Position numbers and translations under genes: made by a program. From contig JAUTCQ010000006.1 of assembly GCA_030673845.1 (NCBI GenBank), positions 62,001 through 126,000 on the forward strand: 64,000 nt of DNA. The letters run 5' to 3'. The DNA is from Verrucomicrobiota bacterium JB022. GTDB lineage: Bacteria; Verrucomicrobiota; Verrucomicrobiia; Opitutales; Oceanipulchritudinaceae. Below, piece after piece: positions 32,489 to 61,434 of this stretch. Below the pieces are notes generated by a model. That model was not told the DNA's origin, did not search any database, and saw only the letters and a list, made by a program, of their open reading frames with translations. The first letter of the stretch is position 1. Each line of letters starts with the position of its first letter.

Positions 32489-32637
32489 GCCACGGATGAA
32501 GCACGGATGGACACCGAAAGTTAGCCATCGCCTACAATCGGATCCTACGCCTTCTCCCCTTCCATGGTGAAAGGAATGAAGGTAAAAGCAGCCGAAAGAT
32601 CCTTTATATCCGTGCCTATCTGTGTTTCATCCGTGGC
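32489..32637. repeat. Phased tandem-inverted intergenic repeat A
   Basis: The left arm (32489-32516) and the reverse complement of the right arm (32610-32637) match at 23 of 28 positions without gaps, the first 12 identical (GCCACGGATGAA). Each arm consists of about three copies of a 10-bp word close to CACGGATRRR. A unique spacer of 93 bp separates them. The element fills the gap between convergent genes; with the terminator before it, it accounts for 32332-32640, where no gene is seen. Confidence 0.75.
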
Positions 32638-41595: not shown

Positions 41596-41713
41596 AACAG
41601 AAGGACGCAAAGATCACGAAGTGGCAGTTTTTGCACGCGCTTTGAAAGCACGTGCGCTTGAAGGAGGCCTTTCTCCTTCTCATTCTGCTTCGTGTCCTTA
41701 GTGTTCTTCTGTT
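41596..41713. repeat. Phased tandem-inverted intergenic repeat B
   Basis: The left arm (41596-41621) and the reverse complement of the right arm (41688-41713) match at 21 of 26 positions without gaps. The right arm reads as three 9-bp words: AACAGAAGA, ACACTAAGG, ACACGAAGC. The spacer holds an extra hairpin AAGGAG/CTCCTT. It lies between two co-directional, metabolically linked genes, so it would fold in their shared transcript. Confidence 0.72.
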
Positions 41714-49974: not shown

Positions 49975-50210
49975 TAATAACTTCTGCCCTTCACGGGGTC
50001 TTACGGGGTAGGGGCAGGAGGCTTTGCGCACCTTGGCATGAAACTTTTCGGCGACGATTTTCAGCTGTTTGTCACCTCCAACGCGGTTGGGTGAGCCAAT
50101 TTCGGCAAAAGAGGGTGGCGAGAGTAAAACGGAGCGTTTTCGAGAGGAGGTAGCACCTTGCGCTCGGCGGCGGCACTCGCTCCGGGGTGCAGTTTGTGTT
50201 GAGTGACCTT

Positions 50211-50343
50211 CCCGGGGTATCGGACCTTGCGGTCCTCGACCCCGGGCTAGAATAGTGACAAGCCTCTGGCTTCCTGGACGATGCCGTGACAATGCTTGCA
50301 CCCCGGAGGGCGTGCCGCTGAGGCTGATTCAGGGACTCAGCGG
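50211..50343. repeat. Second cluster of palindromes, including a nested 36-bp hairpin
   Basis: CCCGGGGT (50211) pairs perfectly with ACCCCGGG (50239), enclosing GGACC-TTGC-GGTCC. Then come AAGCC-TCT-GGCTT at 50260 and CCGCTGAG/CTCAGCGG at 50315-50343. The short ones have the same form (arms closing on CC...GG with a 3-4 nt loop) as the cluster at 28.6 kb. The region lies in the gap before dnaG, downstream of the TPR lipoprotein gene. Confidence 0.65.
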
Positions 50344-55073: not shown

Positions 55074-55253
55074 TTTAACCACAAAAAGCACAGAAAACAC
55101 AAAAGGTGGGAGGACGTGACGCGGGTTCTGATCTTGAATTCAGGAGACGGGCAGAACGACCTACCATTTTAAAGCATGGGAGGAGAGACCAGAGACCGTC
55201 GCACACTCCAAGATATTTCCTGACTCTCTTCCTTTTGTGTTTTTTCTGGTAAA
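55074..55253. repeat. Phased tandem-inverted intergenic repeat C
   Basis: The left arm (55074-55106) is three approximate 10-bp words of the type CACARAAAA. The right arm (rc of 55231-55253) shares a 13-bp identical block AAAACACAAAAGG but has one unit fewer. The spacer of about 124 bp is unique. It lies between converging genes and accounts for most of 54979-55270, where no gene is seen. Confidence 0.68.
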
Positions 55254-55270: not shown

Positions 55271-56542
55271 CTACGACACGGCCTTGGCAGCGGCGACGAA
55301 GCGGCGGGCGGCTTCCTGCAGGTTGTCTTCGCTGAGGGTGCCGAAGCTGAGGCGCACGGCGTGGTGGGGCGCACCTTCGGCAAAGCAGAGGTCGCCGGGC
55401 ACGTAGATCACCTCGCGTTCGAGGCAGGCCTTGTAAAAGGGCGAGTCGATGCGGGTATCGAAGCCTTTGGGCCCCTCCAGCCACATCAGCAGACCGCCTT
55501 CGGGTGCCTCCCAGTGCCAGCCCAATTCCCGTAGGCCTGCGTCGATCAAGGCCTGCTGGAGCACCTGCATCTTGTGCTGGTAGTGGGGGCGCACGCGCTT
55601 GAGCTGCGTCTGGTATTCGCCGCGCTGCCACAGGCGTTCGAGCAGGGCCTGGGCGTAGTTGGCGGTGCCGAAGTCCTGGTGGCCCTTGATCCGCGCCATG
55701 CCTTCGATCCATTCGTGCTGGCGGCTGACGACGTAGCCTGTCTTGAGGCCGGAGGCGAAAGACTTCGAAAACGAACCGCTGTAGAGCAGGGGCAGGTCGT
55801 TCCACTCGGGCAGGCTCAACATGCTGCGCGCGGGGTAGGGGCGGCCAAAATACAGCTCGCGGTAGGCCATGTCTTCGATCACGGGCAGCGGCTGGCCGAG
55901 GCCGCGCAACAGCTCCGCGAGCCCCAGCTTGTCCGTCTCGTCGATGCTGCGGGCGGAGGGGTTGGCGAAGACGCCCATCAGGTAGAGCAGCTTCACGTGG
56001 CTCAGCTCGCGGGATTCGCGCAAGTCTTGTAGCAGCCCTTCCAGTGCGCCGAGGTCGATCCGGCCGTCCGGCCAGGTGGGCACCGACAGGGCGCGCACGC
56101 CGAGGCCGCGTAGCAGCTCCAGAAACACAAAATAGCTGGGGGCCTGCACCAGCACGATGTCACCCGGGTCGCAGAGTAGTTGCACGGTCAGGTAGAGCGC
56201 CTGTTGCGAGCCGTTGGTGATGAGCACCTCGCTGGTCGACACATCGAGGCCAGCTTCGCCGGGGAAGGCGCGCAACATCTCGAGCACGGCCTGTCGCAGG
56301 GCCGGGCGACCGCGGTTGAGCCCGTATTGCAGCGACTCCACCAGCCCGCCTTCGGCCAGGTCACGCGCGGCCTCGGCCACGGTATCGACGGGCAGCACCG
56401 CGTTGTCGGTAAAGCCGGCGGCGAGGGAGAGGATGCCGGGGTGTTCGAGCGCGGCCGTCATCAGGCGCGTAATCACGGGCTCGGCCTGCAGTTGGCGTTG
56501 GCCGAGGGTGGCGTAGGGCAAGGTGGATCGTTGGGCCGACAT
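55271..56542 (-). CDS. PLP-dependent aminotransferase, class I/II (2-aminoadipate/MocR-like without HTH)
   Basis: 423 residues from 56542, which follows AGGAGG. 'SLQYGLNRGRPALRQAVLEM' and 'ITNGSQQALYLTVQLLCDPG' are the typical N-terminal and PLP-phosphate regions; 'YSGSFSKSFASGLKTGYVV' holds the Schiff-base Lys in the SxxK form, and 'VRLSFGTLSEDNLQE' the carboxylate-binding Arg. It resembles the 2-aminoadipate or MocR catalytic domain, but has no GntR-type DNA-binding domain. The amino-acid substrate is unknown. Confidence 0.88.
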   Translation of the reverse strand: MSAQRSTLPYATLGQRQLQAEPVITRLMTAALEHPGILSLAAGFTDNAVLPVDTVAEAARDLAEGGLVESLQYGLNRGRPALRQAVLEMLRAFPGEAGLDVSTSEVLITNGSQQALYLTVQLLCDPGDIVLVQAPSYFVFLELLRGLGVRALSVPTWPDGRIDLGALEGLLQDLRESRELSHVKLLYLMGVFANPSARSIDETDKLGLAELLRGLGQPLPVIEDMAYRELYFGRPYPARSMLSLPEWNDLPLLYSGSFSKSFASGLKTGYVVSRQHEWIEGMARIKGHQDFGTANYAQALLERLWQRGEYQTQLKRVRPHYQHKMQVLQQALIDAGLRELGWHWEAPEGGLLMWLEGPKGFDTRIDSPFYKACLEREVIYVPGDLCFAEGAPHHAVRLSFGTLSEDNLQEAARRFVAAAKAVS

Positions 56543-56602
56543 ACGGTCCTCCTTTTCTGCGCTCGCCATGGGGAGATGGCAACCCTAGCGTGATCCGCCT
56601 GC

Positions 56603-57463
56603 ATGGATTGGTTCCGAATTGTTGCCCTGTTGCTCGCCCTGTATCTCCTGTTCAACCTTGTGCTTTGGCTGGTTGCGCCACGGCTGGTCTTCCCGGCGCC
56701 GGAGCCTTCCTACACCTTTGCGGAGCCGCTTTACCGCCGGCTGGAGCTGCCGGGGGGCGCCGGGCAGTTTGTTCTGACGCTGCAGGAGCCGTCGCCGGCG
56801 GAGGTGATCCAGCGGCTGCCGGGGGCGGAAGAGCGGGTCGTGCTCTACTTCCATGGCAACGCGACCGACCTGGGCTACGTGCAGCGCCGGATTGATGCCC
56901 TCAAGGCCTACGGCTTCACCGTCTGCGCGCCCGATTACCCCGGGTACGGCCAGAGCGGCGGCAAGGCGAGCGAGTCCGGCACCTTGGCCACGGCGGAAGC
57001 CAGCTACCAGTATTTGCTCGATCAGGGCTACGAGCCGCAGCAGATCGTGATCTGGGGGCGCTCGCTGGGCAGCGGACCGGCTTGCCATCTTGCCTCCCAA
57101 GTGCCCTGCGACCGCCTGATCCTCGAAACGGCGTTCGCCAGCATCGTGCGGGTGAAGTTCCCTTTCCGCATCACCTTCTGGGACATGTTCGACAACCTCG
57201 CCCGCGCAAGGGACATCCAATGCCCGGCCCTGGTGCTCCACGGCAAGCAGGATCGTATTGTGCCTTTTGACCACGCGGAGAAGCTGGCGGCGGCGCTCGC
57301 CGGGCCGGTCGAGACGCTCTACGCCGACACGGCTGGACACAATGATTTGCCCGACGTGGCCGGTACGCTATATTGGGAGACGGTTCTTAACTTTGCAGTC
57401 GGCCAGCCCCCTCAACCGTTGGTCGTGCCTGTCTCCGCCCAATTCTCCACCCTCGAAGACTAG
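56603..57463 (+). CDS. Membrane-anchored alpha/beta hydrolase (ABHD13/BEM46-like)
   Basis: 286 residues. One N-terminal TM helix (about 5-27) anchors the hydrolase domain. 'VLYFHGNATDLGYV' is the oxyanion strand, 'YPGYGQSGG' follows, and 'WGRSLGSGPA' gives the nucleophile Ser in a GxSxG elbow; 'LVLHGKQDRIVPF' has the acid, and 'ADTAGHNDLPD' the His. ABHD13/BEM46 relatives are of uncertain substrate. It is divergent from the aminotransferase and lies 6 bp before the DJ-1 gene, so the two may be co-transcribed. Confidence 0.83.
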   Translation: MDWFRIVALLLALYLLFNLVLWLVAPRLVFPAPEPSYTFAEPLYRRLELPGGAGQFVLTLQEPSPAEVIQRLPGAEERVVLYFHGNATDLGYVQRRIDALKAYGFTVCAPDYPGYGQSGGKASESGTLATAEASYQYLLDQGYEPQQIVIWGRSLGSGPACHLASQVPCDRLILETAFASIVRVKFPFRITFWDMFDNLARARDIQCPALVLHGKQDRIVPFDHAEKLAAALAGPVETLYADTAGHNDLPDVAGTLYWETVLNFAVGQPPQPLVVPVSAQFSTLED

Positions 57464-57469
57464 TTTCCC

Positions 57470-58012
57470 ATGGCCCAAGCTCTTGTTATTATCGCCCCCG
57501 GATTTGAAGAAATGGAGGCCGCCGCGCCGATCGACCTCCTGCGCCGCGCCGACCTGAAAGTCGTCGTCGCGACCACGCACGACGAACTCCTGACCGAAGG
57601 CCGCAACCAGATGCGCTGGCAGGCGGATGCCTTTCTGGAAGAAGTCGCCGATGAGACCTACGACGCCGTGATCGTCCCCGGCGGCCCCAGCCACAAAGTG
57701 CTGCGAGGTAACCCACTCGTGCACAAGATCCTGCAAACGCAGGCCGAGAGTGGTCGCCTGATCGGGGCCATCTGCGCCGCTCCGCTGGTGCTGCTCGATG
57801 CGGGCGTCCTGGGCGGCAAGCGCTACACCGCCCACTTTTCCGCCGCCGAAGAGCTGAGCGAGATCGACGAAAACTCTGCGGTGGTGATCGACGGGCAACT
57901 CATCACTAGCCGTGGTGCCGGCACGGCCACACGCTTTGGCCTCGCCCTCGTCGCCGCCCTCTGCGGAGCCGACAAGGAGAACGAAATCGCGAAAAGCATC
58001 TGCTACCTGTAA
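57470..58012 (+). CDS. DJ-1/PfpI (ThiJ/YajL) family protein
   Basis: 180 residues. 'IIAPGFEEMEAAAP' contains the conserved Glu that hydrogen-bonds the catalytic Cys; 'VIVPGGP' and 'GAICAAPLVLLDAG' hold the nucleophile-elbow Cys. This is the DJ-1/YajL set of residues, so a role in oxidative-stress defence or repair of damaged proteins is plausible. It starts 6 bp after the hydrolase stop codon and converges on the TolB-like gene across repeat D. Confidence 0.9.
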   Translation: MAQALVIIAPGFEEMEAAAPIDLLRRADLKVVVATTHDELLTEGRNQMRWQADAFLEEVADETYDAVIVPGGPSHKVLRGNPLVHKILQTQAESGRLIGAICAAPLVLLDAGVLGGKRYTAHFSAAEELSEIDENSAVVIDGQLITSRGAGTATRFGLALVAALCGADKENEIAKSICYL

Positions 58013-58027
58013 GGATAGGAAATTTGG

Positions 58028-58189
58028 AACAGGAGTTAAAAGGAGTGAAAAAGAGTTCCCAGCCAGGGAATTATAGAAGGTAGCGAAGGTAAATCAGAAA
58101 GAGGTATACCTGACTGCCTCGCGTTCTCTGTTCCCTCCCGTCAGAAGCTTGTGTAGAAACTCCTTTTAACTCTTTTTAACTCCTGTTCA
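58028..58189. repeat. Phased tandem-inverted intergenic repeat D (clearest member)
   Basis: The left arm (58028-58060) and the reverse complement of the right arm (58157-58189) match at 29 of 33 positions, starting with 15 identical bases (GAACAGGAGTTAAAA). The left arm contains three exact 10-bp units CAGGAGTTAA, AAGGAGTGAA, AAAGAGTTCC. The spacer is 96 bp. It fills the gap between converging genes. Confidence 0.8.
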
Positions 58190-58202
58190 ATCCATCCCCT
58201 TC

Positions 58203-59414
58203 CTACCGGCCGAGGTAGATGACGTCGGCCATTTCGCTGTTGGGGAAGTTGTTGGGGCTGAGGACGGTGGATTTGCCGGTCTCGGTGTCGAGCACCATCA
58301 GGCGGGCGCGTTGCTTGGTGCGCTCGGTGTAGATGAGGTGGCGCCCGTCGTTGAGCCAGATGGGGTGGACGGCGTCGCCGGGGCCGCGGCTGACCCAGGT
58401 GCTCTTGCCTTCGGAGAAGCTGTAGATCGCAACTTCGAATTCGCCGCCGGCGGCCGCCGTGAAGGCGATCTTGTCGCCATCGACGGGGTTCCAGGAGGGC
58501 TCGGAGCAGTTGCCGCTGAGGTTGGTGGGCAGGCGGCGGGCTCCTTGGCCGTTGGCGTTGATCGTGTAGATCTGGGGGGAGCCGGCCTCATCGGAGGTGT
58601 AGGCGATGCGTTGGCCGTCGGGGGACCAGGTGGGGTCGGCCTCGAGGCCGCGCGTGCTGGTGAGGCGTTGCAGGCCGGAGCCGTCGGCCCGCGCCACGTA
58701 AAGCTCGGAGTTGCCGCTGCCGCTGAGGATCATGGCCACGCGGTCGCCGTTGGGGCTGTAGCTGGGGCCGGTGTTTACGCCGCGGAAGCTGGCGAAGACC
58801 TTGCGCTCGCCGTTGGCGAGGTTGATGCGGTAGATGTCGGGGAAGCCGTTGCGGTGGTAGCTGGTGTAGAGCAGCGAAGAGCCGTCGGGCGAGATGTCGG
58901 GCACGAGGCACTCGGACTTGTCGGAAGTGAGTTGGCGGGCCTCGCGGAAGAGCAGATCGCTCACGTAGATTTCGCGCTCGCCGGTGCGGCGGGAGACAAA
59001 GGCGAGGCGTGAATTGAAGAAGCCGCGCCCGGTTTCGGAGGTGCGGGCGACGCCGTAGTCGGCAGCCTTCGCCAGCGCTTCGCTCCAGCTGCGGCCGGAG
59101 AAGCTTTGGCGTGCCAGCTCCTGCCCATTGCTGAGGATGGCGATGGCGACGTTGTTGCCCTGCCCGCGCTCAAAGCGGAAGGTAAACTGCGTGCGCCCGC
59201 TGGCTTTGACGTCGTAACCGCCGTGCAGGCGGAAGGCCTGGCGGGCCAGCTCCAGCGACGCATCGTCGTTGGCCTCAAGCGTGAGGCTGATGCGCTGTAC
59301 ATTACCAGAGACAGTCCCGATGTTGTCACCCTGGGCGCGCAAGGGGGAAAACCCCAGCATCGCCAACAGGATCAAACCCATTACGTAGCTCAACACATTC
59401 CGATACACTCGCAT
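58203..59414 (-). CDS. TolB-like periplasmic beta-propeller protein
   Basis: 403 residues from 59414, the start of the signal peptide ('YVMGLILLAMLGFSPLRAQ'). A short N-domain precedes a six-bladed PD40/WD40-type propeller with 'ISPDGSSLLYTSYHRNGFPD', 'YSPNGDRVAMIL', 'WSPDGQRIAYTSDEAGSPQI' repeats. The layout matches TolB, the periplasmic part of the Tol-Pal envelope system, but no tolA, tolQ, tolR or pal gene is present here, so the exact name is not given. Some TolB-like propellers have other partners. Confidence 0.8.
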   Translation of the reverse strand: MRVYRNVLSYVMGLILLAMLGFSPLRAQGDNIGTVSGNVQRISLTLEANDDASLELARQAFRLHGGYDVKASGRTQFTFRFERGQGNNVAIAILSNGQELARQSFSGRSWSEALAKAADYGVARTSETGRGFFNSRLAFVSRRTGEREIYVSDLLFREARQLTSDKSECLVPDISPDGSSLLYTSYHRNGFPDIYRINLANGERKVFASFRGVNTGPSYSPNGDRVAMILSGSGNSELYVARADGSGLQRLTSTRGLEADPTWSPDGQRIAYTSDEAGSPQIYTINANGQGARRLPTNLSGNCSEPSWNPVDGDKIAFTAAAGGEFEVAIYSFSEGKSTWVSRGPGDAVHPIWLNDGRHLIYTERTKQRARLMVLDTETGKSTVLSPNNFPNSEMADVIYLGR

Positions 59415-59538
59415 GGTCAGGAATATGGGCCACGTTGCGCCACTCCGCAAATCAAATGCCCGTTGACAGACTGGACCGGTCGGACTACCGCTGAACCTTC
59501 AGGCCGCGCAAGCGCCCGCAATTTTTCCGATTTTTCCC

Positions 59539-60603
59539 ATGCTGACCGAAAACCAAGTCCGCGAAGCCCTCAAGCAGGTCAAATACCCCGGTTTCAGCCG
59601 CGACATCATCTCCTTCGGCCTCATCCAGAGCCTCGAAGTGCACGGTGACCATGTCCACGTAAACCTGGCGGTGACAACGTCTGACCCGAAGGTGCCGAAA
59701 ACCCTGAAGGACAATGTGGAGCAGGTGCTTGGCGCCTTGCCCGGTATGCGCGCGGTTCATTGCCACGTGGCCGTGACGGCGCCCAAGGGCAGCACCGGCA
59801 CCGTGGGCGGCGAAAAGCAGGAAGGCCCGCTGAAGAACGTGAAGAAGGTCATCGCGGTGGCCAGCGGCAAGGGCGGCGTGGGCAAGAGCACCGTGGCGGT
59901 CAACCTCGCCTGTGCGCTGGAGCAAGTGCTGAGCGAGGCCAATGGCACCAGCCGCGTGGGCCTGCTCGACTGCGATATTTACGGCCCCTCCGTGCCGCTG
60001 ATGATGGGCGTAGGCCAGCGCCCGGAGATCCAGAACGAAAAGCTGATCCCGCCGGTCAACTTCGGCGTCAGCGTGATGTCGATGGCCTTGCTGGTCGACG
60101 ACAACGCGCCGGTGGTGTGGCGCGGCCCGATGGTCAACCAGGCCATCCAGCAGTTTGCGCAACACGTGGAGTGGGGCGACCTCGATGTGCTGGTGGTCGA
60201 CTTGCCGCCGGGTACGGGCGACGCGCAGCTCTCGCTGGTGCAGATCTTCCCGGTCGACGGTGCGGTGATCGTCACGACCCCACAGCGCGCGGCGGTCGAA
60301 GTCACCTGCCGGGGCGCGCGGATGTTCGAGAAGGTCAACGTGCCGCTGCTTGGGGTGGTGGAAAACATGGCCTACCTCGAAACGCCCGCCGGTCGTCAGG
60401 CGATCTTTGGCGAAGGCGGGGGCAAGCTGGCCGCCGCCGCGCTCGAGACCGACGTGCTCGGCCAGGTGCCGCTCGAACAGGCAGTGCGCGAGGGGGGCGA
60501 CCACGGGATCCCGCTTACGGTTTCGCAACCGGACTCGCCGACCGCCCAAACCTTCCAGACCATCGCCCGTGCCGTCTGGAAAAACTTGAACGCGCAGGCC
60601 TGA
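59539..60603 (+). CDS. Mrp/ApbC (NBP35 family) P-loop ATPase, iron-sulfur carrier type
   Basis: 354 residues. N-terminal MIP18/DUF59 domain (about 1-80), then the deviant Walker A 'SGKGGVGKST' (109-118), 'LLDCDIYGPSVPLMMG', 'VDLPPGTGDAQLSLVQ', and 'VVENMAYLETPAGRQAIFG'. In most Mrp/ApbC proteins a CxxC that holds the cluster stands in that last segment; here it is absent ('YLETPAGR'). The ATPase is therefore likely retained but cluster binding doubtful. It sits alone, divergent from the TolB-like gene. Confidence 0.88.
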   Translation: MLTENQVREALKQVKYPGFSRDIISFGLIQSLEVHGDHVHVNLAVTTSDPKVPKTLKDNVEQVLGALPGMRAVHCHVAVTAPKGSTGTVGGEKQEGPLKNVKKVIAVASGKGGVGKSTVAVNLACALEQVLSEANGTSRVGLLDCDIYGPSVPLMMGVGQRPEIQNEKLIPPVNFGVSVMSMALLVDDNAPVVWRGPMVNQAIQQFAQHVEWGDLDVLVVDLPPGTGDAQLSLVQIFPVDGAVIVTTPQRAAVEVTCRGARMFEKVNVPLLGVVENMAYLETPAGRQAIFGEGGGKLAAAALETDVLGQVPLEQAVREGGDHGIPLTVSQPDSPTAQTFQTIARAVWKNLNAQA

Positions 60604-60758
60604 TTTGGCGTCAAATCTTTTCTGGCCCATAAAAAGGTCGCACAAATCTTAGTGCTATCGCTTTAGGCGTGCAGGACGGGATTTTAGCTGTATATTGCCG
60701 TAGGTAAATACGAACACTGTTGATCCAGCCACGTACAGTCCTTTTCGAAAACACCCCC

Positions 60759-61013
60759 ATGACCCGATCACGCCAGACACCGGAGGATCGCCACGATTTC
60801 GTGAAGCGGTCGAGCCTGTATCAGGAGTTCTTGGCGGAACGGGAGGAAATCCTGCGCCACAAGTGGATCGAATCCGAGAAGGCGGGCAAAGACATCGGTT
60901 TTGAGCGCGCCTTGCTCGATTGGATCCGCAACCATAAGGCGGGCTGGAAAGCCTCCCGCCGCAAGCCTTCGGACGACGCAGGGGCCGACCCGCTCCCACC
61001 CGGGGACGAATAA
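60759..61013 (+). CDS. Conserved small hypothetical protein
   Basis: 84 residues from 60759. The body is charged and helical ('RSSLYQEFLAEREEILRHKW', 'DIGFERALLDWIRNHKAGW') and ends in a disordered Asp/Pro tail. The central Trp-rich helix pair looks conserved and well coded, but I do not recognise a named family. It converges on rpmG with a terminator hairpin between them. Confidence 0.55.
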   Translation: MTRSRQTPEDRHDFVKRSSLYQEFLAEREEILRHKWIESEKAGKDIGFERALLDWIRNHKAGWKASRRKPSDDAGADPLPPGDE

Positions 61014-61039
61014 GCTTAAACCAACCAAAATTTGGAAAC

Positions 61040-61066
61040 AAAAAAAGGCGAGGAGCAATCCTCGCC
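61040..61066 (-). terminator. Terminator of rpmG, possibly bidirectional
   Basis: A perfect 8-bp stem GGCGAGGA/TCCTCGCC with loop GCAA. On the minus strand a T-run follows, terminating rpmG; on the + strand only TTT follows. Confidence 0.85.
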
Positions 61067-61091
61067 TTTAAAGTATCTGCAGACCAACGCG

Positions 61092-61259
61092 TTACTTGAT
61101 TTCGCGGTGCAGCGTGTAGCGCTTCAGGGCCGGGTTGTACTTCTTCTTCTCCATACGGCCTTGCTGCTTCTTCTTGTCGCGGGAAGAGTTGTAGCGCGAG
61201 GGGCGCTTACCTTCCTTGCGGGCTTCGGTGCATTCCAAAATGATGTGTTCGCGCGGCAT
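61092..61259 (-). CDS. rpmG: 50S ribosomal protein L33, zinc-free (C-) form
   Basis: 55 residues starting 'MPREHIILECTEARKEGKR' and ending 'RYTLHREIK', the L33 terminal motif 'tlH.EiK'. A near-perfect GGAGG precedes the ATG. Only one Cys (Cys10) remains of the four that bind zinc in the C+ form, so this is the zinc-independent C- type. L33 sits at the E site of the large ribosomal subunit. It is longer between the motifs than the E. coli protein because of the 'SSRDKKKQQGRM' stretch. Confidence 0.93.
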   Translation of the reverse strand: MPREHIILECTEARKEGKRPSRYNSSRDKKKQQGRMEKKKYNPALKRYTLHREIK

Positions 61260-61434
61260 GTTTCCTCCGAAAGTTGAAAAAGTATCAAAATGCCCGGGCA
61301 CCGCACCCAAAGCAAGCCAAAATCGCTCATCTCCTGCCCTTCGCCTTTTCGTAAAGATAATCGGCTTTGCGGGGTGAACAGGATTAGGATAAAACTTAGG
61401 TCGCTCTTCGACGCAAAATCGCTGCGCCAAATGT

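Follow-up and report, generated by a model that had tools for sequence, protein, structure and literature searches.

Inverted iterated-word elements of a Verrucomicrobiota genome as probable gene-less relatives of a small mobile unit carrying a GxxExxY gene

What kind of element is an inverted pair of iterated words placed between two converging genes, and how does it relate to pairs of the same design but with other words in nearby gaps? The question is raised by a 64-kb stretch (64,000 nucleotides; here called the window) of the genome of Verrucomicrobiota bacterium JB022. Element D (58027–58188) consists of two 31-nt inverted arms, or 33 nt if extended outward, around a 100-bp spacer. Each arm has three units of about 10 bp with the words GAACAGGAGT-TAAAAGGAGT-GAAAAAGAGT, and the inverted pair of three such units described in the initial annotation is real. 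The neighboring genes converge (a plus-strand ORF ends at 58012 and a minus-strand ORF spans 58203–59450), which had been given as the setting of D; this holds for the window copy but not as a rule, 23 of 27 D copies lying between co-directional genes according to a rough gene caller. A search of the whole window against Rfam at the gathering threshold gave no match.

The same plan had been claimed for three other gaps of the window and is present in each of them, at 32489–32637 (arms of 29 nt, 83% match), 41596–41713 (26 nt, 81% match), and 55077–55250 (about 30 nt, with a cleanest ungapped core of 18 nt at 89%). The window thus holds one element per class: D at 58.0 kb, CACGGAT at 32.5 kb, AACAGAAG at 41.6 kb, and CACAAAAG at 55.1 kb. 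Their coordinates are collected in Table 1. The words do differ among the elements, as had been noted; they are not wholly unrelated, however, and most fit the grammar C-R-C-N-R-A-N.

Table 1. Positions of the iterated-word elements within the window.
Feature	Position	Strand	Remarks
CACGGAT-word element, left arm	32489..32517	+	Word is that of the GxxExxY gene arms at C13:243154
CACGGAT-word element, right arm	32609..32637	-	Inverted pair
AACAGAAGGACGCAAAGATCACGAAG element, left arm	41596..41621	+	Same arm type around a GxxExxY gene in sister species G001, locus L242
AACAGAAGGACGCAAAGATCACGAAG element, right arm	41688..41713	-	Inverted pair
AACCACAAAAAGCACAGAAAACACAAAAGG element, left arm	55077..55106	+	Word class with 10 matches in the genome
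AACCACAAAAAGCACAGAAAACACAAAAGG element, right arm	55231..55250	-	Inverted pair
Element D, left arm	58027..58057	+	Three iterated ~10-bp words (GAACAGGAGTTAAAAGGAGTGAAAAAGAGTT); same arm in the genome's 28 inverted pairs
Element D, spacer	58058..58157	.	No GxxExxY remnant; nested inverted-word element (AACAGAAG... type) here in other D copies
Possible decayed nested inner element (TTATAGAAGGTAGCGAAGGTAA ... CCTCGCGTTCTCTGTTCCC)	58071..58135	.	By inspection; resemblance to intact nested copies only
Element D, right arm	58158..58188	-	Words of the left arm, inverted copy

The arms of D are not single-copy. Genome-wide counts, obtained from sequence searches and about 1 Mb of genome stretches, put its inverted pairs in this genome at 28, spread over 14 contigs; a single pair carries a gene, and pair lengths are 55–199 bp save for one of 455 bp. 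Scanned de novo, 864 kb of the genome yielded 15 inverted repeats, most of them of D's plan, whereas a 400-kb third-order Markov control returned 0 at the same threshold; hence, an inverted pair of D's quality is not a product of chance. Once the threshold was lowered and genes were called with a simple caller, most non-coding inverted repeats fell into a few word classes, namely GAACAGGAGT-TAAAAGGAGT (D), AACCACAAAAGG-CACAGAAAA-CACAAAAG, GCCACGGATGAA-ACACGGAT, AGCCGCAGATGA-ACGCAGAT, TTAACCAGAAAA-GCAGAAAA, and AACAGAAGG-ACGCAAAGA-ACACGAAG. The spacer of D had been taken for unique sequence, a description that often does not hold in the family, as at least seven gene-less D copies contain a second, nested inverted-word element. 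The junction between D and this inner element is nearly constant (GGAGTTTTAAAACAGAAG) on one side, and the other side has 20–30 bp of variable sequence (C17:92772, C12:123674, C15:30916, L199, L201, and L206). With one junction near-constant and the other side variable, the nested arrangement may have been dispersed as a composite.

Repeats of another type occur in the same sequence. Inverted pairs of a GCACCCCTCCGGGGTGC palindrome, found at 50170–50318 of the window and again at C17:265561, C15:196573, C6:20569, and locus L220, form a REP-like family that matches the repeats flanking a Y1 (RAYT-like) transposase gene at C6:35003. The Y1 genes at C3:223256 and C13:309577 have different flanking repeats of their own.

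In the sequence scanned, that is, the window and stretches of contigs C12, C15, and C17, a distance of more than 250 bp was found for a single D pair, the 455-bp copy at C15:131626–132080. Its arms are identical (31/31), and between them lies a GxxExxY gene (TIGR04256, E 1.3e-41; PF13366, E 1e-40). PF13366 is PDDEXK_3, of the PD-(D/E)XK nuclease superfamily, and has six matches in this genome. Three of these lie between inverted word arms (of D, of CACGGAT, and of CAGAGAA/CAGAAAA), one lies directly after a CACAAAG-word element, and two are gene fragments, each with one CGCAGAT arm retained. The initial annotation had overlooked this gene, which goes with the arms. CACGGAT, CAGAAAA-type, and CGCAGAT words all occur both with and without the gene in this genome, and gene-less copies of D outnumber gene-bearing ones 27 to 1. 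Remnants of GxxExxY were looked for in the D spacers, and none were found. The PDB contains no sequence relative of the GxxExxY protein. An AlphaFold model (mean pLDDT 61) gave weak matches to Hjc Holliday junction resolvases and to the R2 retrotransposon endonuclease, with which the protein shares the PD-(D/E)XK superfamily; given this low model confidence, the structural comparison is no more than suggestive.

The link between gene and arms extends well beyond this genome. Among 100 GxxExxY loci of the phylum, a flanking inverted repeat scoring at least 14 was found in 79%, compared with 2.8% for mismatched flanks, and the best inverted match between left and right flank had a median score of 19 compared with 9.5. 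About 12% of these loci scored under 12 and have no recognizable arms. The arms are mostly made of three iterated words that vary among loci (e.g., AACCACAGAGGACACAGAGAGCACAGAG, AACCGCGAAAGGCGCGAAACGACGCGAAA, and GAACCGTTAATTTACGTTAATTGGCGTTAAT). On the left, the arm usually stops no more than about 30 bp from the start of the GxxExxY domain; on the right, it begins at the stop codon or just before or after it. As a control, the genome's own genes of 300–600 bp were scored in the same way, and only 2 of 170 had flanking repeats with a score of at least 14, one being GxxExxY itself and the other a Y1 transposase with its REPs. In the reverse direction, a search of GTDB genomes with a DNA pattern of three CACGGAT words yielded 120 loci, mostly in Planctomycetes and Verrucomicrobia with a few in other phyla; a GxxExxY gene was present in seven, in all seven cases beside the words.

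The arrangement also turns up among extrachromosomal and more distant records. As a source of exact empty sites, plasmid and phage collections were set aside, with seven plasmid records and one IMG/VR locus matching and no match among phages. Word arms surround GxxExxY in plasmids of Bacteroides finegoldii and Bernardetia, in a Gemmatirosa plasmid a gene-less element lies immediately downstream of the gene, a Sphingomonas plasmid has the upstream arm only, and the arms of a Prevotella plasmid are weaker on inspection. GxxExxY also stands beside word arms in a proteobacterial MAG. These data show that inverted iterated-word arms bracketing a PF13366 gene are an association that is specific to the gene. 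The earlier suggestion that a shared layout with different words reflects one underlying system is borne out, and the system recurs in this genome and in many others.

What is conserved within the arms was assessed by separating the words from the linkers. The best unit spacing in 72 GxxExxY arms was 9 bp in 34, 8 bp in 14, 10 bp in 14, and 11 bp in six; the units are phased, as had been proposed, with a spacing of 8–11 bp, mostly 9, rather than strictly 10. The grammar C-R-C-N-R-A-N was derived from 69 loci whose words fit the search pattern C-R-Y-N-N-A-N, which imposes the fixed positions; among the free ones, position 3 favors C and position 5 favors R. Mismatches between the two arms of an element affected 8.1% of word positions and 31.3% of linker positions (p = 7e-19). 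In the young D copies, this difference is not visible (4.7% and 6.4%, respectively). As the mismatch rate is about four times as high in linkers as in words, what the arms conserve is the words and not a stem. The long RNA hairpins suggested in the initial annotation are, by the same figures, ruled out as the conserved feature, and the contrast points to recognition of the repeated word rather than of a stem.

An ortholog series from one site in one genus gave a closer view of how the words change. Depending on the genome, the word is CACGAAA, CGCGAAT, CACGGAA, or CACCAAA, and arms match far better within an element than between elements (mean scores of 25.5 and 14.0). In eight elements of the series, word columns change on both sides, whereas linker columns 11, 20, and 21 are not kept paired. 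At a larger scale, a Mantel test of whether word identity follows the gene gave r = -0.43 (0/2000), and on a tree of 99 GxxExxY genes a single change accounts for the last word base (G or not), compared with 33 changes when shuffled. These comparisons show that gene and word were inherited together, each gene lineage apparently with its own word. Two protein columns, one with H/Y and one with T/N, correlate strongly with the last word base; as specificity contacts they were discarded, because the tree shows a single switch, that is, one event.

We then considered whether the elements behave as insertions. D and the 55-kb element are both absent from the orthologous gaps of sister species G001, which measure 98 and 116 bp. 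At D's place, on the minus strand of G001 (C22:45556–45654), a GC hairpin with a T-run behind it looks on inspection like an intrinsic terminator. The two species also differ by the inversion of a block of about 6 kb (window 55320–61322; G001:C22:42448–48336), one breakpoint of which falls in the gap of the 55.1-kb word element.

Decay to gene-less forms can be followed in other genera. G101, from a genus of many small genomes, contains a GxxExxY element and two dispersed relatives that are 90–96% identical in the shared stretches; one lacks 262 bp of the gene and keeps both arms, and the other has lost the right arm along with 210 bp of the gene. The GxxExxY element of G101 is nested inside another dispersed inverted-repeat family (GACGCGGAATTTCAGGAAGG ... 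CCTTCATTCCTGAAATTCCGCGTC; loci L351, L453, and L454), the copies of which are 81–93% identical. In genus g46, 12 of the species examined have the element at one and the same site, and in one of these the gene has decayed; genome G288 has kept the arms around an internally deleted gene, and in G199 the element is absent. Its persistence at one locus through much of the genus suggests that movement would be slow or episodic.

Single gaps also change their occupants. In a gatA–gatB-like gap (assigned by inspection) compared among 21 congeners of g46, two species have a GxxExxY element with CACAGAG words, three have gene-less elements with three other 9–10-bp words, four have 7-bp-word elements, and in four the gap is essentially empty. 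A truA-like gap of g46 again holds different element types, one nested in another. Insertion is the natural reading, as the repeated filling of one gap by different types, together with nesting, is hard to explain otherwise. Taken together, the deleted copies, empty sites, and changing gap occupants indicate, from genome comparison, mobility and decay to gene-less copies. The flanks of D, the empty sites of G001 and G199, and the gatA–gatB-like and truA-like gaps were inspected for a target-site duplication, and none was definable because the genomes compared are only 80–92% identical.

A second, unrelated gene family has the same layout. Genes for 23S_rRNA_IVP (PF05635) have inverted iterated words on both sides (GGCTGTA, GGTTGCT, AGGAGTC, GCTTAAA, or TGATGAA), repeated every 7–8 bp, and arms with a score of at least 14 were found in 60% of 25 loci, compared with 0.8%. 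The four-helix-bundle genes bracketed in this way are at loci L421–L450, L459, and L460, of which L460 is itself a 92%-identical copy with an internal deletion of about 108 bp. Elements with 7-bp words but without a gene are found in several species in the gatA–gatB-like gap. PF05635 had no match in this genome or in G001. The word period goes with the protein family, being 8–11 bp for GxxExxY and 7–8 bp for PF05635. The protein is known from the intervening sequences of 23S rRNA; these carry a terminal inverted repeat of 28 bp, are removed by RNase III, and have been called selfish (PMC4990558).

This precedent is one reason to ask whether selection acts on RNA: a transcript stem would be cut by RNase III, insertion in operons would be tolerated, and the protein would be a passenger or regulator. 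Folding predictions for gene-less D-type elements do give paired arms (about -29 to -97 kcal/mol), the elements lie in operon-like gaps, and PF05635, the protein of RNase III-excised intervening sequences, has the same layout (PMC4990558). Pairing, however, would protect words and linkers alike, whereas linkers mismatch about fourfold more often and do not covary in the ortholog series, as the word columns do; the six-fold iteration of one word and its dispersal would also be left unexplained. We therefore consider an RNA-level element unlikely. Another possibility is that a host or transposon activity encoded elsewhere, such as a Y1 HUH transposase, moves or maintains the words and that GxxExxY is cargo using or repressing the arms. 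The prevalence of gene-less copies (27 to 1 for D) would fit such a mover, and so would the unrelated PF05635 gene in the same layout, if the cargo were interchangeable. Against it, the three Y1 transposase genes of the genome are flanked by different repeats of their own, the period differs by gene family (8–11 and 7–8 bp), and the word tracks the GxxExxY tree. Because the period is family-specific and word identity follows the tree, the word belongs with the gene, and an unlinked mover seems improbable.

The remaining explanations do without a dedicated element. Bidirectional terminators or mRNA 3'-end stabilizers, spread by selection at gene ends, would suit D's position between converging genes and the GC hairpin with T-run seen on inspection in the orthologous G001 gap; the co-directional setting of 23 of 27 D copies, the enclosure of nuclease genes by the arms, and the nested and internally deleted copies are not terminator-like and make this very unlikely. 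Iterated, inverted units are also what slippage and template switching at quasi-palindromes would produce as a mutational by-product with no dedicated protein, and both arms do change together in the ortholog series. Such arm-to-arm copying would, however, homogenize the linkers too, which it has not, and arms are not as common around other genes (2 of 170 controls). With the attachment to GxxExxY, the C-R-C-N-R-A-N grammar, and the dispersed copies also left unexplained, we give a mutational by-product almost no weight.

Very probably, D is a gene-less relative of a mobile unit that carries GxxExxY. The wider reading, in which D and its neighbors are gene-less (MITE-like) copies of a small mobile element family whose full form carries GxxExxY, we regard as likely. 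The full form would span about 0.45–0.65 kb and consist of an inward-facing word triplet, the GxxExxY gene, and the same triplet inverted, each triplet being a word of about 7 bp repeated at 8–11 bp from start to start. Internal deletion of the gene would leave the arms and a short spacer, and such gene-less copies would settle mostly between genes, in many cases co-directional ones, and at times within another such copy.

As for the mechanism, the GxxExxY protein would recognize the word in duplex DNA. Several copies may line up on one face of the helix at each end and bring the ends together, after which the nuclease fold may initiate excision or copying; gene-less copies whose words match would then move in trans. 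The most economical reading is that GxxExxY both binds the words and drives movement, considering that the word is inherited with the gene, that the word rather than the stem is conserved, and that a nuclease fold is predicted. The chances that GxxExxY is the mobility enzyme nevertheless seem to us evenly balanced. We give about even weight as well to the broader proposal of a new bacterial mobile-element class whose sole gene encodes a PD-(D/E)XK protein of about 125 residues that would recognize a lineage-specific 7-bp word three times per end, the unrelated S23/IVP four-helix-bundle family having come to this plan with a 7–8-bp word. The proposal includes many orthogonal protein–word pairs from one family, since gene and word change together along the tree.

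Comparison with known systems places the elements near several of them. Closest in plan are REP/REPIN–RAYT and TIRtron–TIRYT systems, dispersed intergenic inverted repeats whose gene is a Y1 HUH transposase (PMC3733652, PMC6006769); they likewise have one small gene with end repeats, a prevalence of gene-less copies, and variable spacers (PMC3733652). In contrast, the gene found here is PDDEXK_3, the arms are triplets of a 7-bp word, and neither a GTAG/CGTC tag nor a GGGGWSAS consensus was seen on inspection of the word arms. The genome has three PF01797 (Y1) genes, none bracketed by word arms and each with its own REP/TIR; a Y1/HUH (RAYT) transposase, although present, was for this reason rejected as the mover. 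Intervening sequences of 23S rRNA (e.g., in Coxiella) resemble the elements in being units of about 0.4–0.5 kb with terminal inverted repeats and one small gene (PMC4990558). They differ in that GxxExxY (PF13366, not the S23/IVP family PF05635) is unrelated to the four-helix-bundle protein, in the period (8–11 compared with 7–8 bp), and in location, the present elements lying in intergenic gaps between protein genes and not in rRNA.

MITEs are similar as short, multicopy, gene-less units with terminal inverted repeats (28 D pairs, one gene-bearing), with ends in common with a gene-bearing relative and with internal deletion derivatives, as in G101 and G288. Unlike MITEs, the elements have a parent gene for a predicted nuclease rather than a recognized transposase, no TIR tip is defined, and the TIRs consist of iterated words that vary by lineage. 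The TAACTGA and other heptamer repeats of Beggiatoaceae and Cyanobacteria are short intergenic iterated words with a patchy, apparently horizontal distribution; they differ from D-type elements in being almost only direct repeats with a 7-bp period and no linked gene reported (PMC4679880). They are possibly related to the 7-bp (IVP) word class.

No known transposon matches the elements, and the initial view that they belong to no described class still stands in that no name for them was found in the open literature, an earlier description in subscription journals being possible. The excerpts available from the open literature on GxxExxY/PF13366 dealt with matters unrelated to repeats, and typical double words appeared there only in unrelated animal papers. 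Word–GxxExxY–word elements thus look like an undescribed kind of small mobile DNA; if any dispersed unit with terminal inverted repeats counts as one kind, they would be a new variant and not a new class.

To our knowledge, no role is known for the GxxExxY (TIGR04256/PF13366) and S23/IVP proteins, of which the genomes of environmental bacteria encode several copies each. Under the present reading, each of the two would be the sole gene of a small mobile unit with word ends, and both would gain a context and a function open to testing. A large group of otherwise unexplained intergenic repeats, in Verrucomicrobia, Planctomycetes, Bacteroidota, and other phyla, would also be accounted for, and the origin of the 23S rRNA intervening sequences would become testable. 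Finally, a natural series of protein/DNA-word pairs of this kind would be useful for studying the evolution of DNA recognition.
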